Source: Niveispirillum cyanobacteriorum (lineage in GTDB: Bacteria; Pseudomonadota; Alphaproteobacteria; Azospirillales; Azospirillaceae). From it: a stretch of DNA of 64,000 nt. The notes under the pieces were generated by a model that saw only the letters and a program-made list of their open reading frames with translations, ran no database searches and was not told where the DNA came from. The DNA lies in contig NZ_CP025611.1 of assembly GCF_002868735.1 (NCBI RefSeq), positions 2,660,501-2,724,500 of the forward strand, written 5' to 3'. How positions within the stretch are numbered: the stretch's first letter is position 1; each line of letters begins with the position of its first letter. Of this stretch, positions 11-62,212 are shown piece by piece. Both the position numbers and the translations under genes were made by a program.

Positions 11-117
11 TTCCCTCAGCGCCGGGCGCCGCCGTCCGGCGGCTTGGCTGCACGCGACCATGGGGTCGCGGGTCGGCAGTCGCCGACCTGCCAATGGTCA
101 GACACGCTCACCATTCG
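11..117 (+). repeat. Four-hairpin intergenic repeat, copy A
   Basis: This copy begins with CCCTCA at 13. It carries stem 1 (28-33 with 38-43), the TTGGCT linker, stem 2 (53-59 with 64-70), stem 3 (71-77 with 82-88, loop agtc) and a private stem 4 (AATGGT 93-98 with ACCATT 110-115). It lies upstream of chvI. The family is described under the findings. Confidence 0.85.
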
Positions 118-252
118 TCCTAAGGCCGTTCTATGTCGTCACGACACTTCCCCGCGCCGCATTGATGACATATTGAAAGGGCAGTTGGATTTGGCAAAGC
201 CGGTCCTTCGGAAGTAATACCGAAGAGAGCGCCTGCAGGTTGGAGAAGAAGC

Positions 253-951
253 GTGTCCCAAGTGATCGCCCTGGTCGATGACGACCGCAACATCCTGACG
301 TCCGTGTCCATCGCGCTGGAAGCCGAGGGCTATGAGGTTCGCACCTATGGCGACGGTGATGAGGCGCTGCGCGGCATCACCTCCCGACCTGTCGACATGG
401 CCGTGCTGGACATCAAGATGCCGCGCATGGACGGGATGGAACTTTTGCAGCGCCTGCGCCAGACCACGCAGATGCCCATCATCTTCCTGACCTCCAAGGA
501 TGATGAGACGGACGAGCTGCAGGGCCTGCGCATGGGGGCCGACGACTACATCAAGAAGCCGTTCAGCCAGCGCCTGCTGATCGAGCGCATCAAGACCCTG
601 CTGCGCCGCACTGAGCTGGCGCAGGGCAAGGGCACGGCCCCCGATCCGGGCCAGACCCTGGTGCGCGGCGAACTGGTACTGGACGGTGCCCGCCATCTCT
701 GCACCTGGAAGGGTAAGGAGATCGACCTGACGGTCACCGAATTCCTGCTGGTCAAGGCGCTGGCCATCCGTCCCGGCCATGTGAAGAACCGCGATCAACT
801 GATGGATGCCGCCTATGGCGAGCATATCTATGTCGATGACCGCACCATCGACAGCCACATCAAGCGTCTGCGTAAGAAGTTCAAGGTCGTGGACGACGAT
901 TTCCAGCAGATCGAGACGCTATACGGCGTCGGTTACAAGTATAAAGAGTAG
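253..951 (+). CDS. chvI: Two-component response regulator ChvI (OmpR family)
   Basis: This 232-residue regulator has an N-terminal receiver domain with an acidic pocket (VDDD near residues 8-11), the predicted phospho-acceptor Asp53 in the [11 protein letters not shown] stretch, and the conserved Lys in DYIKKPF. A C-terminal winged-helix DNA-binding domain ends in YGVGYKYKE. Both domains and the partner gene downstream match ChvI, which in Alphaproteobacteria responds to acid and envelope stress and controls surface and symbiosis/virulence functions. Translation starts at GTG 253 behind GGAGAAG. The cognate kinase gene chvG follows about 106 bp later, and repeat copy B fills that gap. The hprK/PTS genes that often follow chvIG in relatives are not present here. 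Confidence 0.95.
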
Positions 952-955
952 AGCG

Positions 956-1055
956 CCCTCAGGCGCCGGGCGCCGCCATTCGGCGGCTTGGCTTACGCGC
1001 CACGTGGCGCGGGCCGCCGGTCGGCGGCCTCCAGCGGTCAGGAAGTGACCGCTGG
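956..1055 (+). repeat. Four-hairpin intergenic repeat, copy B
   Basis: CCCTCA starts 5 bp after the chvI stop codon. Stem 1 is 972-977 with 982-987, stem 2 is 997-1003 with 1004-1010, stem 3 is 1012-1018 with 1023-1029 (loop ggtc), and stem 4 is a perfect 10-bp pair, 1031-1040 with 1046-1055. The loop of stem 4 is ggaag, which looks like a ribosome-binding site. The copy ends two bases before the first possible chvG start codon, so it must be part of any chvI-chvG transcript. Confidence 0.88.
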
Positions 1056-1057
1056 TT

Positions 1058-60857: not shown

Positions 60858-60873
60858 TCTATGGAGGTACGAC

Positions 60874-60957
60874 ATGCGCAAACTGTCGTGTCTCCTGGTG
60901 CTCCGTATCCCCATCTGGCGGCGGCGTGTTTTGCACGTCACCATCATGCTGGGGTAA
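60874..60957 (+). CDS. Possible 27-residue peptide
   Basis: An ATG at 60874 stands 6-7 nt after a perfect GGAGG and opens a frame of 27 codons: MRKLSCLLVLRIPIW, then RRRVLHVTIMLG, with an arginine cluster RRR. It follows a promoter-like pair and a strong hairpin. It could be a small regulatory or membrane peptide; the evidence is the ribosome-binding site only. The surrounding gap (60760-61062) holds nothing else that I can call. Confidence 0.35.
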   Translation: MRKLSCLLVLRIPIWRRRVLHVTIMLG

Positions 60958-61062
60958 GGACCTAGGAGAGGGCAGGCCGGGTCTAGCCACCCGTCCTACC
61001 TTCCTCTTCACTATAGGTGAAACCCGCGCACAAGTCTATCGGTGCGAGAGTAATCGTACCGA

Positions 61063-62016
61063 TCAGCCCAGGCCCTTCTGGCCCATATCCAGGAACTTCT
61101 GACGGCGATTCTGGCGCAGGGTTGCACCATCCTGACCACGCAGACCTTCCAGCGCATCCTCGATGGCATTGCCCAGCGCGCTGATCGTTTCCTCGCGCCG
61201 ACGATGAGCGCCGCCGATCGGCTCCATCACCACGCGGTCGATCACCGCCAGTTCCTTTAGATCCTGTGCCGTCAGGCGCAGGGCCTGGGCCGCATCGGCG
61301 GCGTTGGCGGCAGAACGCCAGAGGATGGAGGCGCAGCCTTCGGGCGAGATCACCGAATAGATCGAATGTTCCAGCATCAGCACGCGGTCGGCGGCAGCGA
61401 TGGCGATCGCGCCACCGGACCCGCCCTCACCGATGATGGTGGAAACCATCGGGACGTTGAGGCGCAGGCAGCTTTCGATGGATTTGGCGATGGCTTCAGC
61501 CTGGCCGCGTTCTTCCGCCGACACACCGGGGAAAGCACCAGCCGTGTCGACCAGCGAAATAACGGGCAGGTTGAAACGATCGGCCATGGCCATCAGGCGC
61601 TGGGCCTTGCGGTAACCTTCCGGCTTGGCCATACCGAAATTGTGCTTCACGCGGCTTTCGGTGTCGTTGCCCTTCTCCTGGCCGATCACGACCACGGAAC
61701 GGCCCCGGAAACGGCCCAGCCCACCGATAACAGCGCGATCCTCTCCGAACAGGCGGTCGCCCGCCAGCGGGGTGAAATCGGTGATCAGCGCCTGGACATA
61801 GTCAAGGCAATGGGGCCGGTTCGGGTGGCGGGCCACCTGCACCTTCTGCGCCGGGGTCAGCTTGGCATAGGTGGCGCGCAGCAGCTTATCCACCTTGTCC
61901 TGAAGCTTCTTCACCTCGTCGGCGATGTTCAGATCACCGCCATCGGCAAGGTGGCGCAGCTCCTCGATCTTGGATTCCAGCTCCGCGATCGGCTTTTCGA
62001 ATTCCAGGAAATGCAT
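61063..62016 (-). CDS. accA: Acetyl-CoA carboxylase carboxyltransferase subunit alpha
   Basis: This 317-residue subunit pairs with AccD to transfer carboxyl groups to acetyl-CoA in fatty acid synthesis. It begins [20 protein letters not shown], then [12 protein letters not shown] [45 protein letters not shown], and [35 protein letters not shown], all diagnostic. Repeat copy I lies upstream. Confidence 0.96.
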
Positions 62017-62107
62017 CGACGTGACTGTTCCGCCCTTGGCACTGAAGCGGGCTGATTAGCATGAGATGGGGCCGAGGGCCATAGTGTGTGTGCGCAAATG
62101 TGAGGTG

Positions 62108-62212
62108 CCGGTGGTCATCCGTGATGATCACTGGCAGGCCAGCGACCGCTGGCCCGGACCCCCGTGGGTCCGTGAGCCAAGCCGCCGGATGGCGGCGCCC
62201 GGCACCTGAGGG
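62108..62212 (-). repeat. Four-hairpin intergenic repeat, copy I (inverted)
   Basis: TGAGGG at 62207-62212 is the inverse of CCCTCA. Stem 1 is GCCGCC-ggat-GGCGGC, stem 2 CGGACCC-ccgt-GGGTCCG and stem 3 GGCCAGC-gacc-GCTGGCC. Stem 4 is CCGGTGGTCAT (62108-62118) with ATGATCACTGG (62124-62134), whose two non-Watson-Crick positions are G-U pairs in plus-strand RNA. It lies between accA and the MOSC gene. Confidence 0.86.

Follow-up and report, generated by a model that had tools for sequence, protein, structure and literature searches.

How do the hairpins of a repeat family stay paired while their sequences change? This question is raised by a 64,000-nucleotide stretch of the Niveispirillum cyanobacteriorum genome (NZ_CP025611.1, positions 2,660,501 to 2,724,500; the whole of it is hereafter called the window), in which ten copies of an intergenic repeat, eight long and two truncated, carry nearly fixed linkers and hairpin stems of varying sequence. 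Covariation of this kind is often taken as proof of RNA function on site, and the first-pass annotation had offered both selection on folding and a copying process that renews the stems as explanations. Our analysis rather suggests mobile elements of the miniature inverted-repeat transposable element (MITE) type, non-autonomous and with IS630-type ends, which decay after insertion and are paired as they spread, a reading that we regard as probably correct. It rests on defined ends with a target duplication, empty sites in relatives, an end motif that IS630 elements have as well, the decay of pairing at resident copies, and stems that differ as blocks at orthologous loci.

A covariance model built from an alignment of 27 copies of this genome, among them window copies B, C and D, matched all ten copies claimed for the window (E 1.9e-20 to 0.0072), the next-best window matches having E-values of 0.067 and weaker. 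The search of the genome and its relatives, proposed with the original annotation as a check, returned at least 94 matches in this genome at E <=0.001 (a lower bound, as scoring covered 150 of the 13262 candidates from the first look) and 114 in the relative G010. The two conserved core linkers, CCCTCANNCGCCGG and TTGGCT, combined into the pattern CCCTCANNCGCCGG..TTGGCT, occurred 44 times in the genome (two matches overlapping), and the reversed control gave none. In an alignment of 92 of the 94 genome copies, standard pairs filled 97.3% of 1691 cells, both-side changes occurred in 17 of 19 pairs, and 354 cells were altered on both sides, compared to a mean of 117.5 after shuffling and 6-68 with slid partners. 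A second alignment of 114 copies from named genomes gave 94.5% paired cells and 482 both-side cells against 160.3 (shuffled) and 17-121 (slid); having been fitted to the structure, the two alignments lean towards pairing. The second drew on 96 of 119 named-genome loci, 19 of the 23 omitted ones coming from genomes already included and the remaining four (L116, L142, L173, L178) being omitted without test. Independent of any model, RNAalifold on a MAFFT alignment of 27 copies identified compensated changes at 13 of 24 pairs, and the claim of fixed linkers with covarying stems 1-3 thus stands well beyond chance.

The core of roughly 78 bp is part of a longer unit. In ten copies from G002 and G009 that were compared, a left hairpin follows an initial TACCAA, then come a T-tract, GTTC, the core and a right hairpin, and TTGGTA closes the unit. 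Full units measure about 140-169 bp. Of the four hairpins originally described, the three of the core and stem 4, the right terminal one, were recovered, and the full unit has a fifth at its left end. Copy C is the sole full-length unit recognised in the window. When window positions 13000-32500 were compared to the genus by blastn, this copy recurred as a repeat of about 160 bp, including stem 4, in at least 41 places (G002, G009, G003 and G001; 84-93% identity). Also, a stem 4 of the style CCAATC..CCAAGG..GATTGG is common to several copies of this genome outside the window, so that stem 4 cannot be called private to each copy as had been supposed. Similarly, the two G-U wobbles ascribed to stem 4 of copy I are A.C mismatches on the element's own (minus) strand. 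The DNA fold of a 159-base stretch almost identical to copy C had a z-score of -9.88.

The ends of the full units point to transposition. Exact TNA-TACC left and GGTA-TNA right ends were present in 25 of 346 copies, those with altered ends being left out of the count, and the TNA was identical on both sides in 21 of the 25, about a quarter being expected by chance. Units of 60-400 bp with identical TNA numbered 28 in 337 loci, some of them counted twice because loci overlap, and 26 of these measured 140-169 bp. The site of copy C is empty in G010 and G005, where ..GTTACA.. corresponds to ..GTTA[TACC...GGTA]TTAAA.. of this genome, and empty sites were likewise found for the copy L031:4551 in G010 and for copy B in four relatives. 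The family therefore displays marks by which MITEs are recognised: its members are short, non-coding, multicopy and dispersed, possess terminal inverted repeats, a target duplication and empty sites, and share their ends with autonomous elements of the IS630 family (L364 and L148, and a relic in L366).

At locus L364 of G009 (862-2026), a 1165-bp IS630-family element has the same ends as the units and is flanked by a TCA/TCA duplication; against NCBIfam NF033545, its second reading frame passed the cut-off (9.8e-45) and its first stayed below it (4.5e-21). A second IS630 element, at L148 of a metagenome-assembled genome (Baikal-deep), adjoins TACC...GGTA units, and the relic, a DDE_3 match on contig C5 of this genome (L366), has its one recognisable end behind a TTA. 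All five IS ends read TACCA(A/C)-N7-TGA-N4-RACY; among 42 unit ends, RACY occurred at positions 21-24 in 32 and TGA at position 14 in 16. The mover is likely an IS630-family transposase acting on these matching end sequences. DDE_3 (PF13358, IS630) was matched in eight of the 11 genus genomes, G001, G008 and G010 being without a match. The mover families searched further comprised PF01797 (RAYT), PF04986 (IS91-type Y2) and PF13586. The IS5-type DDE_Tnp_1_2 (PF13586; six matches in this genome) was rejected, as it has other ends in the groups with visible borders and no TACC...GGTA pair surrounded any of 25 matches. The idea that GTTC at the left junction might be an IS91-like target was dropped as well, copy B having no GTTC.

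Two further arrangements were observed. L148 (601-2026) holds three head-to-tail TACC...GGTA units, namely the IS630 element, a small coreless unit and a core-bearing unit. At L344 of G002 (~312-463), a TAA-flanked full unit of another subfamily lies about 100 bp from a DDE_Tnp_1_2 match.

The fate of resident copies was followed in G010, in which 29 of the 94 copies have a colinear counterpart among the stretches compared and 24 are present in both genomes. The element is absent from G010 at four colinear sites (B, C, L031:4551 and E), the site of E holding dissimilar sequence and not being cleanly empty; the counterpart of H2 is merely too decayed for the pattern. In 22 curated orthologous pairs (the 24 minus D and F, in which one copy is truncated; four non-colinear combinations were left out), paired positions differed at 53 of 816 sites (6.5%) and linkers plus loops at 47 of 767 (6.1%). 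A wider count, whose paired class also took in pairs outside the core, gave 8.7% for paired positions, 9.2% for unpaired ones and 8.2% for the near flanks. The 40 changed pairs comprised 27 one-sided, 10 compensated and 3 other changes. When copies from different sites were compared with each other, compensation was seen in 80% of the cells that differed (19600 of 24546). Taken together, decay in orthologs and compensation between copies indicate that pairing belongs mainly to the spreading copies and not to residence. Of the two causes proposed earlier, selection on folding, taken as acting wherever a copy resides, finds no support in these numbers, and a process tied to copying or conversion describes them better.

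This is also indicated by the manner in which stems differ. At two orthologous loci (L025/L210 and L033/L226), entire stems differ in flanks that are 93.5-95.4% alike, and in the ten copies from G002 and G009, which have near-identical left ends, stem 2 has three or more distinct sequences, each of them paired. We read this as a putative exchange of stem blocks between copies, perhaps together with hairpin-templated correction. Stem types are associated between stems 1 and 3 (0 of 2000 shuffles) and between stems 2 and 3 (p 0.0185), not clearly between stems 1 and 2 (p 0.11), which speaks against a wholly free exchange. Inversion of a whole stem, considered for the change from GCCGCC to GGCGGC, was dropped as the ATCC loop is not inverted. 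Left of the core of L210 (G010), the 5' lead of the element is directly duplicated over 16 bp (AACTTGCACGTTCCCT); at this locus the whole of stem 1 differs blockwise between G010 and the present genome.

The following course of events would be in line with these observations. A full unit, with inverted ends that each form a hairpin around the three-hairpin core, would insert at TNA and duplicate three bases, moved by an IS630-family transposase via the matching ends. After insertion the unit would decay, losing the left hairpin in most copies of this genome and gathering one-sided mutations in its stems. Copies that spread would retain intact palindromes, so that stems differ and yet pair between copies. 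At times whole stems would be replaced, probably through hairpin-templated correction or through recombination between copies at their identical linkers; for the rewriting of stems in pairs, template switching has been put forward in the literature (PMC8794818). Such stem-by-stem renewal of an element of this kind is unusual.

Most copies of this genome are short forms without a left hairpin: a search of 60 nt for one with 8 bp or more succeeded in 8 of 50 copies, three of the eight looking like ordinary host terminators, and the left-end motif of C occurred once in this genome at up to three mismatches. No TACC end was found within 90 genome bases upstream of copy A. The core of copy D ends after stem 1 in G010, G005 and G008 and is present in G006 and G003. 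The short forms probably arose by loss of the left end, but may also move as such.

Several observations weigh against an IS630-driven MITE. Both ends were seen in only one of the ten window copies and in the 25 of 346 copies mentioned above, and the short forms behind stop codons do not resemble plain insertions at TNA; in copy B, some 20 bases have been added at the right, and a clean TNA duplication is missing. IS630 elements are known to duplicate TA, and here the units show a three-base TNA, as does the L364 element with its TCA/TCA. The triplets at the sides of the L148 element, TAA and TTA, are not identical. No IS element holding the core was found, the search for DDE_3 in this genome yielded the one-ended relic alone, and the three of 11 genus genomes without a DDE_3 match include G010 with its 114 model matches. 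Finally, the ten compensated changes between orthologs (five loci) exceed the ~0.6 expected from independent change by our own rough estimate, and selection or correction therefore acts in place to some extent.

In a further reading, which we regard as rather unlikely, the core would be a structure-coded DNA module in its own right, with linkers kept across alphaproteobacterial orders, paired stem blocks exchanged, sites a few bases behind stop codons and IS630-type ends as one vehicle. A related reading, which credits the core with its own machinery as a DNA module that is mobile or conserved separately and takes the IS630-type ends for only one vehicle, appears likewise rather doubtful. The pattern was present in 15 of 31 genomes (all 11 of the genus, 2 of 8 other family members and 2 of 12 other class members), and at least 119 stretches were collected from named genomes, mostly Rhodospirillales, the Roseomonas group and Sphingomonadales, where the linkers recur often without recognisable ends, a point for a separate module. 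The Streptomyces and Ammonifex records among these matches may be due to chance, and PLSDB plasmids gave no match at E 1e-5. Also in favour of a separate module, many among the matches listed for copy B as query span the 78-bp core only, and copy B itself was gained without visible TACC ends. This copy, a short form, is common to G005 and absent in G010, G006, G003 and G008, and we take it as gained because the genes of these four relatives meet at a compact junction; in G002 and G009 the site is occupied by other sequence, and the comparison also covered G001 and G007 without resolving them. However, the short forms can be end-deleted full units, with which the T-rich stretch before the core agrees, and no candidate enzyme for a separate machinery was found.

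A structured RNA or 3'-end element, such as a terminator, an mRNA stabiliser or a small RNA, held folded by selection at each site, is improbable, although the strong covariation in both alignments would suit it. For the arrangement towards genes, these were called by a simple codon-usage script and not taken from an annotation. The 90 copies that could be classified (92 aligned copies minus two without a gene on one side) lie in 49 tandem, 30 convergent and 11 divergent intergenic sites, compared to 35, 8 and 10 such regions in the window, element-bearing ones counted in; convergent sites are thus enriched (Fisher p 0.019), and the shortage of divergent ones is non-significant (p 0.33). In 64 copies a stop codon lies opposite the 5' side of the core, at a distance of up to 30 nt in 45 and of 4-16 nt in 41, which supports a 3'-end element but may also reflect target choice or survival of harmless insertions. 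The left hairpin of C with the following T-tract is terminator-like, another point for an RNA. However, the elements point either way relative to the genes beside them, and close relatives differ in whether a given copy is there.

Base pairs outside the standard set were counted as a further indicator, as one strand working as RNA should favour G-U over A.C. G.T was less frequent than A.C in the alignment of 92 copies (11 vs 26, p 0.02) and in a direct count of stem 1 (11 vs 22 among 1582 cells; copies with fewer than four stem-1 pairs were left out, which raises the paired share), both speaking against an RNA. In the alignment of 114 copies the direction was the opposite (44 vs 15, p 0.0002), in favour of an RNA, with the reservation that the fit to an RNA model may favour G-U. 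Between orthologs, paired sites were not kept better than linkers and flanks, as a folded RNA would require, and yet compensated changes exceeded chance.

Still less probable are repetitive extragenic palindromic (REP) sequences whose mover would be a HUH transposase, a RAYT or another one, with specificity for hairpins of single-stranded DNA. The copies are palindromic, intergenic and numerous, with structure kept more than stem sequence, and processing of folded single-stranded REPs by TnpAREP is described in the accessible part of PMC8266576. In addition, a strong match to Y1_Tnp (3.1e-44) is present in G015, the genome in which the pattern was most frequent (414 matches). In contrast, Y1_Tnp (PF01797) had no match in this genome and one in the 11 genus genomes, Y2_Tnp (PF04986) none in all 11, this one included, the ends of full units are inverted and flanked by a duplication of 3 bp, and the conserved linkers contain no GTAG or CGTC tag. 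The 414 exact matches lie in a 4.3-Mb draft, many of those listed at contig ends, so that the copies probably break its assembly. Ordinary repeat drift, with no process keeping stems paired, has next to no chance: orthologous copies do drift, mainly by one-sided changes, but the both-side cells beyond shuffled and slid controls refute it as the sole cause.

With the MITE reading preferred, the family was compared to known systems. The earlier remark that no named family fits holds at the family level: Rfam gave no match at gathering thresholds in the window, the best sub-gathering matches (E 0.027), in six related stretches, were taken as chance, and no paper title naming these repeats was found in a literature search whose reach mostly excluded subscription journals. 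The kind itself, MITE-like elements with IS630-type ends, is already known. As far as the accessible part of PMC2229807 describes it, RUP of pneumococcus is a 107-bp intergenic repeat of about a hundred copies whose ends match IS630-Spn1, and is thus alike in being short, intergenic and equipped with ends of an IS630-family element. RUP is tied to TA targets there, in contrast to the TNA of our units, another point against the preferred reading, and the three-hairpin core, the covarying stems and the occurrence in several bacterial orders set our family apart. The Correia/NEMIS elements of Neisseria are MITE-type as well, with inverted ends, ~107 or 155 bp and stem-loop transcripts; modular covarying stems are not mentioned in that part of the source (PMC2229807), the comparison being one of descriptions and not of sequences. 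CIR of Caulobacter and Brucella is also an alphaproteobacterial intergenic repeat, with two hairpin arms and a linker, but has an exposed GANTC and is listed without inverted ends (PMC2229807, same part); here, GANTC occurred in 3 of 92 core copies. GTAG- or CGTC-tagged REPs with RAYT are palindromic, and their stems vary within families (PMC3733652, accessible part). However, they are short palindromes with an unpaired tag, whereas our units have a TNA duplication and no Y1 transposase was found in the genome. Compared to known MITEs, the family differs in its TNA duplication, a core kept across orders and modular covarying stems.

The strong covariation in this family seems mostly due to its mobile history, pairing being lost about as fast as linkers change, and the family is thus a caution for covariation-based RNA discovery. 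It also provides a natural case for how hairpin stems get rewritten in pairs. The positions of all copies in the window are given in Table 1, in which G-numbers denote compared genomes.

Table 1. Repeat copies in the window and the parts of the full-length copy C.
Feature	Positions	Strand	Basis or remark
Copy C, full unit TACC...GGTA, 158 bp	15473..15630	+	sequence; empty site in G010, G005
Copy C, left TTA target duplication	15470..15472	+	
Copy C, right TTA target duplication	15631..15633	+	
Copy C, left terminal hairpin, then T-tract (terminator-like)	15478..15509	+	
Copy C, core: CCCTCA linker, stem 1, TTGGCT, stem 2, stem 3	15518..15592	+	
Copy C, right terminal hairpin (stem 4)	15593..15628	+	common to G002, G009 copies
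Copy A, core	8..95	+	model match
Copy B, core	951..1036	+	CCCTCA begins 4 nt past upstream called open reading frame (ORF)
Copy B, right hairpin (stem 4)	1031..1055	+	
Copy D, core	18658..18743	+	model match
Copy D, right hairpin (stem 4)	18738..18764	+	
Copy E, decayed core	26819..26906	-	model match
Copy E, right hairpin (stem 4)	26795..26823	-	
Copy F, truncated core (part of stem 1)	31170..31278	+	model match
Copy G, core, short-stem-1 subfamily	33952..34034	+	model match
Copy G, right hairpin (stem 4)	34028..34057	+	
Copy H, core	40233..40320	+	model match
Copy H2, truncated, immediately 3' of H	40322..40388	+	model match, E 0.0072
Copy I, core	62130..62217	-	model match
Copy I, right hairpin (stem 4)	62107..62135	-	two A.C mismatches on element strand

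Other palindromes and repeats occur nearby. Two CGTC-type palindromes in inverted arrangement (CGTCATCCCGGC...GCCGGGATGACG) are located at 30620-30790, a site at which G010 and G005 carry an element of the present family instead and G006 carries none. Several further palindromes of the CCGGCYTTCGCCGGGATGACG type were found on both strands at 20320-21380. Within this region, the stretch 20616-21060, inside the called ORF 20034-21167, matches three other places among those listed in the genome with 77-84% identity and is perhaps a member of a small gene family.

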